Positions 11,833 to 18,760 of a DNA stretch of 64,000 nt are shown here, piece by piece (the first letter of the stretch is position 1; each line of letters begins with the position of its first letter). The notes beneath the pieces were generated by a model. That model was given only the letters and a program-made list of their open reading frames with translations, did no database searches and was not told where the DNA came from. The stretch spans positions 186,001 to 250,000 of the forward strand of contig NZ_BMJV01000002.1 of NCBI RefSeq assembly GCF_014643635.1, given 5' to 3'. A program made the position numbers and the translations under genes. This stretch comes from Salipiger pallidus. GTDB taxonomy: Bacteria > Pseudomonadota > Alphaproteobacteria > Rhodobacterales > Rhodobacteraceae.

Positions 11833-12873
11833 ATGATCTACAACATGAACAGCGGCCCCTCGACGCAGTACAGCAACCTTCTGCGCCGCAACACCAATGC
11901 CGAGCTTCAGACCCGCCTTGCCACCGCCGAGCAGGAGTTGTCCACCGGCGTGAAGTCGGACATCTACAAATCGCTTGGGGTCGGCGCGTCCGAGGCGCTG
12001 GCGCTGAACGCTACGCTGGAACGGGACGCGGCGCAGATCGCCGCCAATGGTCTTCTGGGCAGCCGCATCGACCGCATGAGCAGCGCCATCAGCGCCATCC
12101 GTGCTGGCGTCGGACCGGCGATGGAGCTCGCGCTTGCCAACAGCGTCGCGGACAGTGGCGCAGCGGACGGCATCCAGGTGGTGGCGCGGGCGGCGCTCGA
12201 TGCGCTGGTGAACCAGGCCAACGCCACCCATGCTGGAGCGGCGCTGTTTGCGGGTGCAGCGGGTGACGCACGTGCGCTGACCCCTTGGGACGCGGCCTCG
12301 GATGGCGGGCAGACGCCCCGGCAGGCGGTCGCGGCAATCACTGGCGGCAGCATCGACAGCCTTGCCGATGCCGAAGCCAAGTTTGCGGAACTGGATGCGC
12401 TGTTCTCGGGCGGTGGCTTTGATGGGCTGTTCTATGGCGGCAGCGGCGATGGCCGCCAGTCCGTGGGCATCGGCGATGGCGAGCGGGTGAGCTTTGGCGC
12501 CTCTGCCAGTGATCCGGCCTTCCGCGAGGTGCTGCAGGGGCTGGCGATGCTGGTCTCGGTCGATCCTGCCGGGATCACCGATGACGCCGCCTATGATGCC
12601 TGGGTCGGTACTGCCGCCTCGCGTATTGCCGAGGGCATGGCCGGGCTGCTTGACCGCCAGACCCAGCTTGACGCCGCGTCTGCGCAGGTCGAGGCCTCCA
12701 GCGCGCGGCTGAAGGATCGTGAAGTGGTCTACTCCGCGCGTGTGGATGCGCTTGTCGGGGTGGACAGCTACGAGGCTGCGACCAGCATCACCGCGCTCGA
12801 AACCCAGCTTCAGGCCAGCTACGCCGTGACCGCGCGGCTATCGCAGCTGAGCTTTCTGAATTTCATGTCCTGA
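11833..12873 (+). CDS. flgL: Flagellar hook-filament junction protein FlgL
   Basis: FlgL (HAP3) is the second adaptor between hook and flagellin filament. The 346-residue product has a flagellin-like N-terminus (LLRRNTNAELQTRLATAEQELSTG) and a C-terminal helix ending in LQASYAVTARLSQLSFLNFMS. ATG 11833 was chosen because it begins MIYNMNSGPSTQY, the expected N-terminus, with GGAG upstream. Its last 36 bases overlap the 3' end of the convergent regulator gene, so the two messages are complementary there. Confidence 0.92.
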   Translation: MIYNMNSGPSTQYSNLLRRNTNAELQTRLATAEQELSTGVKSDIYKSLGVGASEALALNATLERDAAQIAANGLLGSRIDRMSSAISAIRAGVGPAMELALANSVADSGAADGIQVVARAALDALVNQANATHAGAALFAGAAGDARALTPWDAASDGGQTPRQAVAAITGGSIDSLADAEAKFAELDALFSGGGFDGLFYGGSGDGRQSVGIGDGERVSFGASASDPAFREVLQGLAMLVSVDPAGITDDAAYDAWVGTAASRIAEGMAGLLDRQTQLDAASAQVEASSARLKDREVVYSARVDALVGVDSYEAATSITALETQLQASYAVTARLSQLSFLNFMS

Positions 12874-13596
12874 GCCAGGCAGGGGCAGCGGCTGCGTTGC
12901 CTCTTCCAAGCCCTCGGGGGACAGCTTGTAGCCGCGGCCGCGGATCGTGCGGATGTGCGGATCGCCCAGCGGCGACATTTCCTCGATCTTCTTGCGGATG
13001 CGGTGGATGTAGACGTCGATCACCTTGTCGAAGGGCTGGTCGTCGGCCATGCCGTAGACCGCGTCGTAGATCCGCGATTTCGACACCACGCGCGGCGCCG
13101 CCAGTGCGATCTGCTGGAAGATCGCCAGTTCCCGCTGCGACAGCCGCATGGGCTGGCCCGCCACGTCCGGATCACGCCCGTCGAAATACGCCGTGATATC
13201 ACCGATATGCACAGACGCCGCCGCGTGGCCGTGGAATCGCCGGGTGATGGCGTTGACGCGGCTGCGCAGCTCGAACCCGGTCAGCGGCCCGACGATGTCG
13301 TCATCGGCACCCGCGTCAAGCGTCTCCATCGCCGCCTCGGGGTCACGCTCGGAGCGCAGGACCAGAACCGGGTTGCGGCAGCCGGCGCGGCGCAGGCGCG
13401 CGATGCGCTCCACGATGCGGGGGTGGCCCCACATCAGCACAGGGCGGTCGGCAAAGCCGTCGGGCGCGATGAGGTCGAGCTGGCGGTCGAAGAAGTCGTC
13501 GGTGACGGGAACCGGCTCCCACTGAGCCTCGCTCATCCCCGAGATCAGCCCGCCAAGGGCGTTGTTACGCGGCTCGTAAAGGTAGATATGCACCAC
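12838..13596 (-). CDS. FtcR/CtrA-type DNA-binding response regulator with a degenerate receiver domain
   Basis: The 252-residue product has an N-terminal receiver-like half (about residues 1-120) and a C-terminal winged-helix Trans_reg_C domain (about residues 150-235) with SQRELAIFQQIALAAPRVVS, then IDVYIHRIRKKIEEM and TIRGRGYKL. The DNA-binding half resembles CtrA and the flagellar regulator FtcR. In the receiver half the phospho-acceptor Asp position reads LMWGHPR and the usual Lys before Pro is Gly (VGPLTG), so phosphorylation at the usual site looks impossible. Start is GTG (complement of 13594-13596), with AGGGGG upstream. Its place inside the flagellar island, divergent from flgI, suggests it controls flagellar genes; this is inference. 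Confidence 0.82.
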   Translation of the reverse strand: MVHIYLYEPRNNALGGLISGMSEAQWEPVPVTDDFFDRQLDLIAPDGFADRPVLMWGHPRIVERIARLRRAGCRNPVLVLRSERDPEAAMETLDAGADDDIVGPLTGFELRSRVNAITRRFHGHAAASVHIGDITAYFDGRDPDVAGQPMRLSQRELAIFQQIALAAPRVVSKSRIYDAVYGMADDQPFDKVIDVYIHRIRKKIEEMSPLGDPHIRTIRGRGYKLSPEGLEEATQPLPLPGSGHEIQKAQLR

Positions 13597-13800: not shown

Positions 13801-14913
13801 ATGCGTATCGCTGCCTTCCTCGCCGCCGTCGCCACCGCGCTGCTGCCTGCCTTCCCGGCGCAGGCGGATGTGCGGATCAAGGACATTGCCACGTTCGAAG
13901 GTGTGCGCGAGAACCAGCTGGTGGGCTACGGCCTCGTGGTCGGCCTCAATGGGACTGGCGACTCGTTGCGCAACAGCCCCTTCACCGAGAAGAGCATCGA
14001 GGCGATGCTGGAGCGGCTTGGCGTCGGCAACCTGTCCGACGACAATATCCGTACGCAGAACACCGCTGCCGTTATGGTCACTGCGATGCTGCCGCCCTTC
14101 GCGCGGCGCGGCTCGCCCATCGACGTGGTGGTGTCGTCCTTGGGCGATTCAACCTCCCTGCGGGGCGGTACGCTGATCGTGACGCCCCTGACCGGCGCCG
14201 ATGGCGAGGTCTATGCCGTGGCGCAGGGCCCCATTGCCGTCGCCGGCTGGGCCGCGCAGGGCGTTGCCGCCTCGCTGGTCGAGGGCGTGCCTACGGTGGC
14301 CCGGATCGAGAATGGTGCCACGGTCGAGAACGAAATCCCGTTCGAGCTGGCATCGCTGGACACCATCCGCCTCAGCTTGCGCAATCCCGACTTTACCACT
14401 GCCAGCCGGGTGGCAGAGGCGATCCAGCAGAAGCTGGGGGGCAACATGGCCCGCGCCCTGGATCCCGGCACGGTAGAGGTGCGGCTCAGCGGGTCGGGCA
14501 AGGGCGACGTCCCCGAGATGATGTCCGTGGTCGAGAACCTCATGGTCGAGCCCGACAGCATCGCCAAGGTGGTGATCGACGCCCGGTCTGGCACCATCGT
14601 GATCGGGGCCAACGTGCGTATTGACCGGGTCGCGGTCAGCCAGGGTGGACTTACGGTCATGGTGCGCGAGGATCCCGAGGTCAGCCAGCCCAACCCGGTG
14701 ACAATCGGCGGCACCACCGTCGTGGTGCCCCGCACCACCGTGGGCGTCGAGGAGACTGAGACCCATTTCACCATCCTTGAAGGCGCAGACGTGAGCCTTC
14801 AGCGGCTGGTGGATGCGCTCAACGCCATCGGTCTGACGGCGACGCAGACCATTTCCATCCTCCAGGCCATCAAGGCCGCGGGGGCGCTTCATGCCGATCT
14901 TGAAATCATCTGA
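13801..14913 (+). CDS. flgI: Flagellar P-ring protein FlgI
   Basis: FlgI is the periplasmic protein that forms the P-ring in the peptidoglycan layer, with FlgA as its chaperone. The 370-residue product has a signal peptide ending QADVRIKDIA (cleavage about residue 22), then the family hallmarks ENQLVGYGLVVGLNGTGD (about residues 37-54), SLGDSTSLRGGTL (about residues 113-125) and the C-terminal LVDALNAIGLTATQTISILQAIKAAGAL. GGAG (13793-13796) precedes ATG 13801. It starts the rightward flgI-flgJ-flgN unit. Confidence 0.97.
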   Translation: MRIAAFLAAVATALLPAFPAQADVRIKDIATFEGVRENQLVGYGLVVGLNGTGDSLRNSPFTEKSIEAMLERLGVGNLSDDNIRTQNTAAVMVTAMLPPFARRGSPIDVVVSSLGDSTSLRGGTLIVTPLTGADGEVYAVAQGPIAVAGWAAQGVAASLVEGVPTVARIENGATVENEIPFELASLDTIRLSLRNPDFTTASRVAEAIQQKLGGNMARALDPGTVEVRLSGSGKGDVPEMMSVVENLMVEPDSIAKVVIDARSGTIVIGANVRIDRVAVSQGGLTVMVREDPEVSQPNPVTIGGTTVVVPRTTVGVEETETHFTILEGADVSLQRLVDALNAIGLTATQTISILQAIKAAGALHADLEII

Positions 14914-15246: not shown

Positions 15247-15653
15247 CCGACGTGACCCCCGCCCGCGCCAACATGCTGATCGACCAGCTTGCGCGCCTGC
15301 TGCGCGACGAGATCGCCGCCATCGGCCAGGGTCAGCTGGGCCGCGTCGAAGAGCTGTTTCCCCGAAAGGCGGAGCTTCTTGGCGAAATTGAGACGGTCTT
15401 CGGGCAGCAGGAAAAAATTTTCGGACAAGACGATGCAGCGTCCGAGCGGCTGCGGGTCCGGCTGGATGATCTGCGTGATCTCATCGCGACCGATCTGGCG
15501 CTTTTGCGCCGCATGACCGAGGCTACAAGCGCTGTAGCCAGCGAAATTGAGCGAATCCGCGACCGTCAGAGCCTGCGTGGCCTCTACGGCAAGGACGGCG
15601 CCCGCAGCTCCTCGGATGTGACCCCATCGCAACGGTTTGACCAGTCGGTCTAG
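15243..15653 (+). CDS. FlgN-like flagellar export chaperone (probable)
   Basis: The 136-residue product is small and almost entirely helical. It has a heptad-rich N-terminal half (MLIDQLARLLRDEIAAIGQGQ and ELFPRKAELLGEIE) and a polar C-terminal tail. Size, helical content and position just before the flagellins fit FlgN, the chaperone of FlgK and FlgL. There is no invariant motif, so the call rests on architecture and context. It overlaps the rod-binding gene by 4 bases (ATGA). Confidence 0.65.
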   Translation: MTDVTPARANMLIDQLARLLRDEIAAIGQGQLGRVEELFPRKAELLGEIETVFGQQEKIFGQDDAASERLRVRLDDLRDLIATDLALLRRMTEATSAVASEIERIRDRQSLRGLYGKDGARSSSDVTPSQRFDQSV

Positions 15654-15655
15654 CG

Positions 15656-15669
15656 TTAACCTTCGTTAA
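15656..15669. promoter_or_regulatory. TTAAC-GTTAA palindrome upstream of the first flagellin gene
   Basis: TTAAC (15656-15660) and GTTAA (15665-15669) form a 5-bp dyad separated by CTTC, right after the flgN-like stop codon. It resembles a CtrA site (TTAA-N7-TTAA) but the spacing is 6 rather than 7. TTAAC also occurs twice upstream of the second flagellin (16812-16816 and 16847-16851). Confidence 0.35.
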
Positions 15670-15717
15670 ACCTCTGTTCACATTCTGTCGTGTTACCCAG
15701 TACTTACGGCAAGGACC

Positions 15718-15767
15718 GTTTTCGTCAGAAAGACGAAGACCAACGATAGAAATCGGAGCAGAACATA
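15718..15767 (+). promoter_or_regulatory. Flagellin 1 leader: hairpin plus conserved AACGATAGAAA element and ribosome binding site
   Basis: TTCGTC (15721-15726) pairs with GACGAA (15732-15737) around an AGAAA loop. Three further pairs, one of them a wobble, extend the stem to 15718-15740. AACGATAGAAA follows at 15742-15752 and GGAG at 15755-15758, nine bases before ATG. The same arrangement, with compensating stem changes and the same distance from hairpin to AACGATAG, precedes the second flagellin. It is a candidate RNA target for FlbT, or a promoter with a dyad. Confidence 0.6.
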
Positions 15768-16760
15768 ATGTCTTCTATCAATACCAACGCAAGTGCGATG
15801 AACGCGCTGGCGACGTTGCGTGGCATCAACTCCAACCTCGAAACCACCCAGGGCCGCATTTCGACCGGTCTCAAGGTGGAATCCGGCAAGGACAACGCAG
15901 CCTACTTCCAGATCTCCGAAACCATGAAGGGCGACAGCTCGGTTTACGCGTCGATCAACGAAGGCCTGACCCTCACCAAGAACTCGGTCTCGACCGCGCG
16001 TCTTGGTGCTGAAACCATCAATGGTCTGGCTCAGCAGTTTCTCGACAAGGTTGCCTTCGCGCAGGGCGCGACCGGCGGTCATGCCGAGATCGAAAGCGAC
16101 CTTGCCGAGCTGGTCAAGCAGATGGAAACCACCCTCAGCCAGTCGACCTTCAACGGTGACGACATGCTGGGTGCCGGTGGGTACGACGATATCGTGGCAG
16201 GCGCGAACGGTGGTACCAACGCGGTGGCAGATGTCGACGGTACGATCACGACCGCCGCGGTCAACGGTGGCGCCACTGTCGGCGACGACCGCGAAGTGGT
16301 GACCGGCATCAGCCGTGCCGGCGGTTCGTACGCGACCACCTCGATCACCGTTGGCACCCACGACGTGGCATCGCTGGTGGCATCGTTCAAGGCGATCGTC
16401 GAAGTGGCCGGCACGACCACCGCTGGCGACGCCGTTACCGGTTTCGGCGCGACCGCCGCTGCGGGTGACACGACCGACAACTTCCTGGCGACCGCCCTGA
16501 CAACCACCGAAGGCCTCGTCGGCCAGGTGACCGACATCGCCACCAAGCTCGGCCAGTCGGAAAAGTCCATCGAGAACCAGCAGACCTTTCTGAACGCTGT
16601 CGTCGACAGCATCGACTCCGGTGTGGGCTCGATGGTCGACGCCAACATGGAAGAGGAAGCCGCGCGTCTTCAGGCGCTTCAGGTGCAGCAGCAGCTGGCA
16701 ACCCAGTCGCTGTCGATTGCCAACCAGGCGCCGCAGAATATCCTGTCGCTGTTCCGCTGA
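15768..16760 (+). CDS. fliC: Flagellin (first of two tandem copies)
   Basis: Flagellin is the filament subunit exported through the flagellar type III system. The 330-residue product has the conserved D0/D1 ends: SSINTNASAMNALATLRGIN and an N-terminal coiled region to about residue 140, and a C-terminal helix ending ATQSLSIANQAPQNILSLFR. The centre (about residues 140-235) is a short variable domain rich in Ala, Gly, Thr and Val. It is a close paralogue of the next gene, nearly identical at both ends and different in the centre. FlaF and FlbT are encoded downstream. Confidence 0.96.
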   Translation: MSSINTNASAMNALATLRGINSNLETTQGRISTGLKVESGKDNAAYFQISETMKGDSSVYASINEGLTLTKNSVSTARLGAETINGLAQQFLDKVAFAQGATGGHAEIESDLAELVKQMETTLSQSTFNGDDMLGAGGYDDIVAGANGGTNAVADVDGTITTAAVNGGATVGDDREVVTGISRAGGSYATTSITVGTHDVASLVASFKAIVEVAGTTTAGDAVTGFGATAAAGDTTDNFLATALTTTEGLVGQVTDIATKLGQSEKSIENQQTFLNAVVDSIDSGVGSMVDANMEEEAARLQALQVQQQLATQSLSIANQAPQNILSLFR

Positions 16761-16773
16761 CAGGGTTGATACC

Positions 16774-16789
16774 GCCCGCCGGGGCGGGC
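16774..16789. terminator. GC-rich hairpin between the two flagellin genes
   Basis: GCCCGCC (16774-16780) and GGCGGGC (16783-16789) are complementary, 14 bases after the first flagellin stop codon. There is no T-run, so it may be a weak terminator or a 3' stabilising hairpin. Confidence 0.4.
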
Positions 16790-16827
16790 CTCTCGCCCCG
16801 GTGACACTGAATTAACAGGCCCAAGTT

Positions 16828-16873
16828 CTTGTCAGAATGACAAGCGTTAACGATAGAAACGGAGCAGTACGAT
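16828..16873 (+). promoter_or_regulatory. Flagellin 2 leader: hairpin plus conserved AACGATAGAAA element and ribosome binding site
   Basis: CTTGTC (16828-16833) pairs with GACAAG (16839-16844) around AGAAT. Compared with the first leader, stem positions 1 and 3 change as whole pairs (T-A to C-G, C-G to T-A). AACGATAGAAA follows at 16849-16859 and GGAG at 16861-16864, nine bases before ATG. Confidence 0.6.
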
Positions 16874-17809
16874 ATGTCTTCCATCAATACCAACGCCAGC
16901 GCAATGAACGCACTGGCCACCCTGCGTGGCATCAATTCGAGCCTCGAGCAGACCCAGGGCCGCATTTCCACGGGTCTCAAGGTCGAGTCCGGCAAGGACA
17001 ACGCAGCCTACTTCCAGATCTCCGAGACCATGAAGGGCGACAGCTCGGTCTACTCGTCGATCAACGAAGGATTGACCCTCACCAAGAACTCGGTCTCGAC
17101 CGCGCGTCTTGGTGCTGAAACCATCAACGGCCTCGCCCAGCAGTTCCTCGACAAGGTTGCCTTCGCGCAGGGCGCGACCGGCGGTCAGACCGAGGTCGAA
17201 AATGACCTCAACGAGCTGGTCAAGCAGATGGAAACCACTCTCAGCCAGTCGACCTTCAACGGTGACGACATGCTGGGCGCAGGTGCCTATTCGGGTGGTG
17301 ACGTGACCGCCGGATCGGTTGCCGCGGCGACCGGTATTCTGACCGCGGCCACGCAGACCGACACCGACGTGGGCGTGGCACGCAACGTCGTCACCGGCAT
17401 CAGCCGGGCCGGCACCTACAGCACGACCGACATCTCGGTGGGGACCCACGACATCGGCAAGCTGGTGCAGGACTTCAAAACCCTTGCAACCGGCTTCGCC
17501 ACCAACGCCGAGGCCGCCACCGGCGAGGCTTTCCTGGCAGGGGCCCTGGCCTCGACCGAAGGCGTCGTGGGCAATGTCACGGACATCGCCACCAAGCTTG
17601 GCCAGTCAGAGAAGTCGATCGAGAACCAGCAGACCTTCCTGACCGCCGTTGTCGACAGCATCGACGCCGGTGTGGGGTCGATGATCGACGCCAACATGGA
17701 AGAGGAAGCCGCCCGTCTTCAGGCGCTTCAGGTGCAGCAGCAGCTGGCGACGCAGTCCCTGTCGATCGCCAACCAGGCGCCGCAGAACATCCTGTCGCTC
17801 TTCCGCTGA
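16874..17809 (+). CDS. fliC: Flagellin (second of two tandem copies)
   Basis: This second filament subunit has 311 residues. Its N-terminal 140 residues and C-terminal 90 residues are almost the same as in the first flagellin, including the SGKDNAAYFQISETMKGDSS stretch and the C-terminal ATQSLSIANQAPQ. The central region is about 20 residues shorter and of different sequence (AYSGGDVTAGSVAAATG and following). Tandem duplication with divergence of the surface-exposed centre is the simplest explanation. Its leader preserves the hairpin and the shared element of the first copy, so both are probably regulated together. Confidence 0.95.
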   Translation: MSSINTNASAMNALATLRGINSSLEQTQGRISTGLKVESGKDNAAYFQISETMKGDSSVYSSINEGLTLTKNSVSTARLGAETINGLAQQFLDKVAFAQGATGGQTEVENDLNELVKQMETTLSQSTFNGDDMLGAGAYSGGDVTAGSVAAATGILTAATQTDTDVGVARNVVTGISRAGTYSTTDISVGTHDIGKLVQDFKTLATGFATNAEAATGEAFLAGALASTEGVVGNVTDIATKLGQSEKSIENQQTFLTAVVDSIDAGVGSMIDANMEEEAARLQALQVQQQLATQSLSIANQAPQNILSLFR

Positions 17810-17836
17810 TCAGGACTTACGTTCGGTAGATGATCC

Positions 17837-17865
17837 GGCGAGGGGCGCGTTCTGCGCCCCTCGCC
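17837..17865. terminator. Perfect 12-bp hairpin after the second flagellin
   Basis: GGCGAGGGGCGC (17837-17848) and GCGCCCCTCGCC (17854-17865) are exact complements with loop GTTCT, 27 bases after the flagellin stop and before flaF. No T-run follows. It probably limits read-through into flaF or protects the abundant flagellin message. Confidence 0.6.
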
Positions 17866-17949
17866 ACCCCAGGCACCAGGACCGGCGGAACCAGCCGCGG
17901 CCAGTGCAAGGAACGTCCGGCCCGGTCCGGGCGAAGAGGCAGGAAAGAC

Positions 17950-18387
17950 ATGAGCATCAACGCATACAAGCGGACCATCCGCGAAAGCGAAACGCCCCGG
18001 CAGATCGAAGCCCGGGTCTTTGCCCGCATCACCGGCGGCATGAGCGTGCATCTCGAGGCCTGGAACGGCGCCGGCGACAAGGCCGAGCGCGTGGCGATCC
18101 TGGCGCAGGGCCTGCGCGAGGTGGTGTCGGAAAACCGCGCCCTCTGGGTCCGCCTGCAGAACGACCTCTCGCGCGAGGGCAACCAGCTGCCCGCGGCGCT
18201 GCGGGCGAACCTCATTTCCCTGTCGCTGTGGGTCGACCGGACCTGTGGCGAGGTGATCGGCGGCGGCAATGGACTGAAGGCGCTGATCGACGTAAACCAG
18301 AACATCATGGGCGGCCTTGCAGGCCAGAGCCCGGCCCCTGCAGCGGTGGATCTCGATGGCACTCAATCTCACGCTCAAGCCGTTTGA
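17950..18387 (+). CDS. flaF: Flagellar biosynthesis regulator FlaF
   Basis: FlaF is an alphaproteobacterial protein required for flagellin secretion or synthesis; in Caulobacter it acts opposite FlbT. The 145-residue product begins MSINAYKRTIRESETPRQIEAR and carries the family helices AILAQGLREVVSENRALW and LISLSLWVDRTCGEV. ATG 17950 has an AGGAAAG site just upstream. Its 3' end overlaps the flbT start by 32 bases, so the two are coupled. Confidence 0.92.
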   Translation: MSINAYKRTIRESETPRQIEARVFARITGGMSVHLEAWNGAGDKAERVAILAQGLREVVSENRALWVRLQNDLSREGNQLPAALRANLISLSLWVDRTCGEVIGGGNGLKALIDVNQNIMGGLAGQSPAPAAVDLDGTQSHAQAV

Positions 18388-18760
18388 ACGGATCATCGTC
18401 AACGGCTGTCTGATGCGCAACGGCGGTCGCAAGAGCACGATCACCGTTGAAACCCGCGCGGACATCATCCGCGAAACCGACCTGCTCAGCCCCGGTGCCG
18501 CGACGACGCCGGTGACCGCCGCCTACTTCCTCATACAGAGCGCGCTCATTGATGCCGAGGGCCGCGACAAGGCGGTCAAGGCCGCGCAGGAGCGTCTTGC
18601 GGCGCTGGTGGGCGCCTTCTCGGCCGAGATGTCAGGCCATGTCTTCGAAGCCGCCAACAACGTCAGCCGCGGGGAATACTTCACCGCCCTGCGCAACCTG
18701 CGCCCGCTCATGGCGCGCGAGGCCGAGCTTCTCGGGACAGCGGAAGGCGAACGCGCATGA
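18356..18760 (+). CDS. flbT: Flagellin mRNA regulator FlbT
   Basis: FlbT in Caulobacter binds the 5' untranslated region of flagellin mRNA and promotes its decay until the hook is finished. The 134-residue product starts MALNLTLKPFERIIVNGCL, then RKSTITVETRADIIRETDLL, and has the C-terminal helix YFTALRNLRPLMAREAELL. It overlaps flaF by 32 bases and the DUF1217 gene by 4 bases. The paired hairpins in both flagellin leaders upstream are plausible targets. Confidence 0.92.
   Translation: MALNLTLKPFERIIVNGCLMRNGGRKSTITVETRADIIRETDLLSPGAATTPVTAAYFLIQSALIDAEGRDKAVKAAQERLAALVGAFSAEMSGHVFEAANNVSRGEYFTALRNLRPLMAREAELLGTAEGERA

Follow-up and report, generated by a model that had tools for sequence, protein, structure and literature searches.

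The 64,000-nucleotide stretch of Salipiger pallidus DNA analysed here (contig NZ_BMJV01000002.1, positions 186,001 to 250,000, referred to as the window) carries two adjacent flagellin genes whose leaders share a hairpin with an AGAA loop, which raises the question of whether this hairpin is an RNA element kept by selection and, if so, which protein reads it. The reading favored here, with a probability of roughly 0.7, is that the leader is a tandem AGAA RNA element bound by the protein FlbT for translational control and built like the tandem GGA hairpins of CsrA. The features on which the argument turns are the following, with lengths in amino acids (aa) and base pairs (bp).

15718..15740, plus strand: hairpin H1 of leader 1, GTTTTCGTC-AGAAA-GACGAAGAC, 9 bp, with the AGAA(A) loop at 15727-15731 (sequence, fold and covariation)
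16828..16844, plus strand: hairpin H1 of leader 2, CTTGTC-AGAAT-GACAAG (sequence and fold)
15755..15758, plus strand: Shine-Dalgarno GGAG of flagellin 1 (sequence)
16861..16864, plus strand: Shine-Dalgarno GGAG of flagellin 2 (sequence)
15768..16760, plus strand: flagellin 1, 330 aa (PF00669/PF00700)
16874..17809, plus strand: flagellin 2, 311 aa (PF00669/PF00700)
17950..18387, plus strand: FlaF (PF07309)
18356..18760, plus strand: FlbT, the proposed reader of the AGAA hairpins (PF07378; profile similarity to CsrA)

The hairpin common to both leaders was found as the initial annotation had described it, with the core TTCGTC-AGAAA-GACGAA at 15721-15737 in leader 1 and its counterpart at 16828-16844 in leader 2; stem positions 1 and 3 are exchanged between the leaders as whole pairs, the AGAA start of the loop is kept in both (AGAAA and AGAAT), and FlbT is indeed encoded downstream, together with FlaF, according to Pfam. 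AGAA hairpins with a stem of at least 5 bp and a loop of 4 or 5 occur three times on each strand of the window; two of the three on the plus strand are the flagellin leaders, and the third (14429) lies within the open reading frame 13801-14913. The 53 nucleotides (nt) of leader 1 from 15718 to 15770 folded far below shuffled sequences (z -4.71) with H1 and a second hairpin, H2, both formed, and H1 was retained in a 77-nt piece including the first codons (z -2.85). Leader 2 also forms H1, yet with ordinary energy (z -0.46 and 0.39 for two lengths), its centroid fold containing H1 alone, to which the longer of the two pieces adds a single 3-bp helix upstream. A further hairpin in front of H1 in leader 1 is tentative; similar paired arms were seen by eye in some relatives, and two of its four pairs are present in the computed fold.

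15706..15719, plus strand: possible hairpin H0, ACGG-CAAGGA-CCGT, its 3' arm overlapping the outer H1 pairs (sequence)

Leaders were collected from 79 loci of named genomes, which hold 65 distinct FlbT open reading frames, and from 20 genomes of the genus, giving 112 distinct leaders. Flagellins with an N-terminus at least 50% identical to that of window flagellin 1 were called fla2-type (79 leaders, close species included), and those below 50% identity or, in a second set, starting with MSSILTN were called fla1-type, these being working labels only. H1 was anchored on an AGAA between -50 and -34 with pairing ignored. Such an AGAA was present in 78 of the 79 fla2-type leaders and ambiguous in none, the sole exception, L072_5000p, being the least similar of the four flagellins in its cluster. 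The six H1 stem pairs are standard in 76, 77, 77, 75, 73 and 57 of the 78 leaders, and 14 different tetramers occur immediately 5' of the loop, a few of which come from non-pairing rows.

Covariation in these 78 leaders was compared with a tree-aware null, in which the substitutions of each column were re-placed randomly on the flagellin tree. Mutual information lay above the null at all six pairs (p from 0 of 500 to 0.02). Rows that pair were likewise more numerous than under the null (p from 0 of 500 to 0.036), and of the 12 branches with a change at pair 2, 11 keep the pairing. The script picks the loop length for each row, which favors pairing in this count and is a freedom that the tree-aware null does not have; a permutation control with the same freedom gave a mean stem of at most 3.74 vs the 5.28 observed. 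In a second set of 31 rows with 5-nt loops, picked from 52 de-duplicated leaders, the covariation score was 0.453 vs 0.196 in shuffles and was reached by 0 of 500 of them, versions slid along the alignment gave at most 0.208, and 93.5% of cells paired vs 80.3% when shuffled; the two measures that count pairs and pair types did not go beyond the shuffles (109 and 157 of 500). Selection for pairing, suggested earlier from the two leaders, is thus borne out by covariation beyond the tree-aware null in one set and by a score that no shuffle reached in the other, and H1 is well supported as a structured RNA element whose base pairing is kept beyond phylogeny.

The earlier observation of a constant distance from the hairpin to a shared element, AACGATAGAAA, and a GGAG site was also reproduced. 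This element contains a second AGAA, located 21 nt after the AGAA of H1 in both leaders (15727 to 15748; 16834 to 16855) and followed in both by GGAG, and its perfect matches in the whole genome number two, exactly these two leaders. Its description as a separate linear element had to be revised, since together with the next bases it can pair into the second hairpin, H2, in leader 1.

15744..15755, plus strand: H2 of leader 1, CGAT-AGAA-ATCG, 4 bp, the last base being the first G of the Shine-Dalgarno GGAG (53-nt fold only)
16851..16861, plus strand: H2 remnant of leader 2, CG-AT-AGAA-A-CG, AGAA at 16855-16858, 2-bp stem (sequence)

In the minimum-energy fold of 51 nt of leader 2, 16845-16848 pairs with 16858-16861, and the centroid contains neither this helix nor H2. 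Among the fla2-type leaders, 71 of 79 have an AGAA at -27..-8, with a mean H2 stem of 2.41 vs a permutation maximum of 2.04, and in H2 the loop is better kept than the stem. The spacing between H1 and H2 is 20-22 nt in 46 of the 71 (mode 21, range 16 to 33 nt), in a count where the candidate nearest to 21 nt was chosen among several H2 AGAA, which favors that spacing. Outside the Rhodobacterales H2 may contain the Shine-Dalgarno site itself, as in TCCTT-AGAAA-GAGGA.

Within the genus the element is specific to flagellin leaders. A covariance model built from the 31 leaders and run on the 20 genomes of the genus, with 150 first-look candidates scored per genome, matched 20 sites in 14 genomes at E <= 0.01. 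Each site lies immediately 5' of a fla2-type flagellin, several of these leaders being rows of the model itself; the window's genome had exactly two. Three further fla2-type flagellins (in G008, G010 and G018) were unmatched by the model, and four extra matches with E of 0.23 to 0.93 were chance-like. In a set of 33 fla1-type leaders the AGAA lay farther upstream, at -95 to -60 in 25 of them and with a stem of at least 3 bp in 23; in the second fla1-type set, overlapping slightly with the first, the hairpin was found at -70 to -90 in 15 of 23, and of the window genome's own fla1-type leaders the one on C6 has TCGTC-AGAAA-GACG at -80; in the one on C4 no start was located with the pattern used. 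An AGAA hairpin of at least 3 bp was absent from all five flagellins of the order that we presume to be fla3-like (L179-L183) and from both flagellins starting with MSGAIGS.

In searches with Rfam 15, neither the window nor 13 relatives had a family that reached its gathering score; all matches from a scan of 15500-18000 at a low threshold fell far short of the cut-off, and 20 class-wide leaders gave two matches, both below the cut-off and unrelated. The family RF01736 (flg-Rhizobiales) resembles the present element as a candidate Alphaproteobacteria cis-regulatory RNA with a flagellar name and at least two hairpins, but it is longer, with a 141-position model, and its second hairpin has the loop UGCGC vs AGAA here. 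Membership in it was rejected: it scored below the gathering threshold in the window and the 13 relatives, and the one genome matched among 142 of the class was also below the cut-off.

The survey of these 142 class genomes, about one per family and some of them incomplete, gave matches to flagellin in 88, FlbT in 49, FlaF in 50, CsrA in 28 and FliW in 28. The FlbT/FlaF and CsrA/FliW pairs were almost mutually exclusive: of the 88 flagellin genomes 46 had FlbT only, 26 CsrA only, 1 both and 15 neither (Fisher p 9e-11, not corrected for phylogeny), CsrA was present in 25 of the 28 FliW genomes and FlbT in 46 of the 50 FlaF genomes, FliW never occurred together with FlbT, and FliW and FlaF were found together only in G141. 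The single genome of the 142 with both FlbT and CsrA, G106 (L143, L266, L304), has FlaF and lacks FliW.

The AGAA motif extends across the Alphaproteobacteria, and the type of loop in the flagellin leaders follows the same division. A sample of the flagellin leaders was taken, 66 belonging to FlbT genomes and 43 to genomes lacking FlbT, and every loop tetramer was scanned with no favorite preset and with dinucleotide shuffles as the expectation. At a stem of at least 4 bp the top loop was AGAA in leaders of FlbT genomes (20/65 vs 0.95 expected) and AGGA in leaders of CsrA genomes (10/32 vs 0.49 expected). By the CsrA consensus, hairpins of the latter kind, for example GAC-AGGAT-GTC, count as CsrA-type; CsrA recognizes GGA in hairpin loops (PMC4894983). 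Counted per genome, AGAA with a stem of at least 3 bp was present in 21 of 29 FlbT-only vs 2 of 19 CsrA-only genomes (p 2.7e-5), and AGGA or AGGT in 6 of 29 vs 14 of 19 (p 3.8e-4). The 29 FlbT-only genomes include G041 of the window's own family, which is excluded from the sets of 65 and 66 leaders. FlbT genomes gave more leaders per genome than CsrA genomes; when a single leader was drawn at random from each genome, the averages were 15.5/29 vs 1.0/19 for AGAA and 2.7/29 vs 10.0/19 for AGGA/AGGT. Among nine genomes without FlbT and CsrA two had AGAA and two had AGGA/AGGT, and the single sampled leader of G106 had neither type.

Other loops were also enriched in these leaders. AAAA (for example GGGC-AAAAT-GCCC) was found in 14 of 65 leaders of FlbT genomes (within L209-L268) vs 1.84 expected at a stem of at least 4 bp; it is one base off AGAA and could be a variant site or another element. 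By eye, GGCGC-AAA-GCGCC hairpins are also visible in many fla1-type leaders, downstream of H1 and before the start codon. In leaders of CsrA genomes (L149-L175, L269-L276) CCAAGTAGGAG or CATGTAGGAG recurs at the Shine-Dalgarno site, and the loop AAGT was found in 10 of 32 of them vs 0.87 expected at a stem of at least 3 bp.

The parallel between the two pairs of proteins raises the possibility of a relation between FlbT and CsrA themselves. Profile comparison with hhalign of 64 FlbT and 22 CsrA rows gave a probability of 91.6 and a score of 37.4 over 40 columns starting from residue 1, placing ILR of FlbT on VFR/VLR of CsrA; an overlapping set of 40 FlbT rows gave 91.4, while the control scores reached at most 24.3 in 100 column shuffles of FlbT and 16.3 in 167 windows from 11 further proteins encoded in the cluster. 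FlbT R39, which does not vary in two Rhodobacterales sets (36 and 34 rows) and is present in at least 90% of 40 class-wide and other rows (L139 has a different residue), aligns with CsrA R44, invariant in 22 rows and located in strand 5, where we take it to contact RNA. An AlphaFold2 model of FlbT (predicted local distance difference test score 87.7) has five N-terminal strands followed by helices, which is also the order in CsrA; a model of the N-terminus alone had four strands (predicted template modeling score 0.49). The odds that FlbT is homologous to CsrA are judged a little over even. Weak matches of FlbT N-termini to other Pfam families were observed for Sm_like (6/40, best E 0.0069) and DUF2117 (3, best 0.0048). 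CsrA was preferred to an Sm/Hfq-like fold for FlbT, since no similarity emerged when the profile was compared directly with 25 Hfq rows (probability 0.9-1.0).

The mechanism proposed starts from H1, which is stable and has AGAA or AGAAN as its loop, and from H2, about 21 nt downstream, whose weak hairpin places the second AGAA at the Shine-Dalgarno site. FlbT, most probably dimeric, would bridge H1 and H2 as CsrA bridges tandem GGA hairpins, and when bound would block ribosome access or speed decay for as long as the hook is incomplete and flagellin is not yet accepted and exported, with FlaF acting on the opposite side of the switch; CsrA-FliW lineages carry AGGA-loop hairpins in their flagellin leaders instead. 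FlbT has been described as a regulator of flagellin mRNA since 2000. Its binding has been reported to promote decay in Caulobacter, and Brucella FlbT has been proposed to be an activator (PMC4347634); because these accounts differ, the direction of regulation in the bacterium studied here is a guess.

A close published architecture is the flaA leader of Campylobacter jejuni, in which two adjacent hairpins have their motifs 21 nt apart, near the 18-nt optimum for one CsrA dimer, and CsrA represses translation of the major flagellin; CsrA sites frequently overlap the Shine-Dalgarno site (PMC4894983). In Bacillus subtilis translation of the flagellin gene hag is likewise blocked by CsrA until export (PMC8306008). 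Unlike these systems, the window leaders have the loop AGAA in place of a GGA motif, FlaF and FlbT genes adjoin the flagellins, and the window's genome gave no match to CsrA or FliW. Caulobacter crescentus resembles the window in having a flagellin leader together with FlbT and FlaF, a likeness taken from published descriptions. There FlbT is described as repressing translation together with the flagellin FljJ (PMC7591256); in the table of a 2015 review, binding to the flagellin 5' untranslated region is given for FlbT as a proposal, and the motif column is blank (PMC4347634). The authors of the Campylobacter work suggested that FlaF and FlbT may form a system analogous to that of CsrA (PMC4894983). 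No report of an AGAA motif for FlbT or of FlbT-CsrA homology was found in the literature covered, which consisted of excerpts; the early Caulobacter FlbT papers lie outside it and could hold part of this.

Several results weigh against the FlbT reading and the CsrA relation. H2 is weak: a stem of at least 3 bp is present in 35 of 71 fla2-type cases, H2 is lost from the 77-nt fold of leader 1, where GATAGA pairs with coding bases, and in leader 2, which is one base short, it is nearly gone, with only the 2-bp remnant possible. No AGAA hairpin of at least 3 bp was found in 35 of the 65 leaders of FlbT genomes or in the sampled leaders of 8 of the 29 FlbT-only genomes, and the contrast between FlbT and CsrA genomes is not fully independent evidence because it follows deep lineages. 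The profile similarity depends on the rows chosen, with a probability of 90.4 for 36 Rhodobacterales rows and 35.8 for 28 class-wide rows. The Pfam CsrA model was matched by 1 of 40 FlbT N-termini (E 0.1), and a FlbT profile search of PDB sequences did not find CsrA. Foldseek, run without a CsrA positive control, returned no CsrA among the best 50 of 244 matches to full FlbT (best E 0.81) and none among the best 50 of 85 to the N-terminal model (best E 1.4); CsrA is a domain-swapped dimer, and a search with a monomer fold may miss such a match.

Three other explanations have to be set against recognition of the hairpins by FlbT. The initial annotation had allowed for a palindromic DNA operator plus promoter, and the hairpin could indeed be an operator or a promoter part acting on transcription, for example a sigma28-like -35/-10 pair of TCAGAA and AACGATAG; the constant spacing and palindromic arms of the two window leaders, taken alone, would fit. 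The wider comparison makes this highly improbable. AGAA loops with a stem of at least 4 bp were present in 66/77 fla2-type, 30/54 fla1-type and 20/66 class-wide leaders, while antisense TTCT loops were present in 0/77, 0/54 and 0/66 (1 in each set at a stem of at least 3 bp). Because the arms vary with pairing kept and the loop is fixed and lies on the sense strand, the element is read as RNA and not as a DNA operator. A position near -40 in fla2-type and mostly at -70 to -90 in fla1-type leaders likewise disagrees with an operator, and the sigma28-type promoter (TCAGAA ... AACGATAG) was dropped because both the arms and the H1-H2 distance (16 to 33 nt in relatives) vary. Promoter signals of other types were found upstream, including one 5' of leader 1.

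15656..15669, plus strand: CtrA-type box TTAA-N6-TTAA, 5' of leader 1 (pattern match in fla2-type leaders)

A TTAA-N6/7-TTAA box at -99 to -114 was present in 26 of the 79 fla2-type leaders (a raw count with no chance control). In the fla2 promoters of Rhodobacter sphaeroides a 6-bp spacing can function and CtrA activator sites lie near -35 (PMC6180460), so that the position of the box predicts a start near -70, upstream of H1. Class-wide, a sigma54-type promoter was visible in 25 of 66 leaders, 13 of which have an AGAA hairpin (stem of at least 2 bp), in 12 cases between the predicted start and ATG and in L211 only upstream. H1 is predicted from these promoter patterns to lie within the transcribed leader; among the papers listed in a literature search, none dealt with a mapped start for a flagellin of the Rhodobacterales. 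The RNA part of the earlier proposal of a candidate FlbT-recognized RNA element has stood, given the varying stems and the fixed sense-strand loop, and FlbT is tied to it by association only. This association, together with the eight FlbT-only genomes lacking the hairpin in their sampled leaders, leaves some room for a structured RNA read by something else, be it an unknown protein, an RNase or a plain 5' stabilizer keeping the Shine-Dalgarno context. Such a reader is judged unlikely: conservation of the loop, beyond that of a mere stem, suggests a specific one, the loop type tracks FlbT vs CsrA, and the five fla3-like flagellins of the same order lack the AGAA hairpin. That the hairpins are CsrA sites, as their likeness to the tandem hairpins of the Campylobacter flaA leader (PMC4894983) might suggest, is the least credible of the explanations, the loops being AGAAA and AGAAT with no GGA and PF02599 giving 0 matches in the window's genome.

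The flagellar cluster of the window has two Salipiger bermudensis strains as its closest named matches and is similar to the fla2 type, with M. algicola FF3 among the matches; the fla1/fla2/fla3 scheme, in which Marinovum algicola DG898 is the fla2-type reference, is that of PMC11974857. Downstream of the flagellin pair come the genes of FlaF, FlbT and a DUF1217 protein (Pfam). In Caulobacter FlaF is a flagellin secretion chaperone encoded with FlbT (PMC7591256). In the window the start of flbT lies within the 3' end of flaF (18356-18387), which suggests coupled translation of both partners. A GC-rich 12-bp hairpin at 16777-16803, absent from the terminator listing, lies between the two flagellin genes and could stabilize or separate their transcripts, and a very stable hairpin with a 13-bp stem at 17836-17866, 3' of flagellin 2, is probably terminator-like; on the minus strand the latter has the loop AGAAC, from 17853. 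Elsewhere in the cluster, 12838-13596 on the minus strand encodes a protein whose C-terminal part is a DNA-binding domain of response regulators (PF00486) and which may be of the FtcR kind.

For FlbT the AGAA element supplies a concrete candidate motif whose loop and spacing are open to point mutation in model strains, and G106, having both FlbT and CsrA, offers a natural case for finding out which of the two systems governs flagellin. A broader proposal, held tentatively and at somewhat short of an even chance, is that FlbT is a divergent protein of the CsrA superfamily whose RNA code switched from GGA to GAA, and that FlbT-FlaF with AGAA tandem hairpins, at the spacing of a CsrA dimer, replaced CsrA-FliW with AGGA in the flagellin leaders of most flagellated Alphaproteobacteria. 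If the relation to CsrA is true, it would unite two flagellin checkpoints already described as analogous (PMC4894983), and would show how an RNA-binding protein can change its code together with its target loops.

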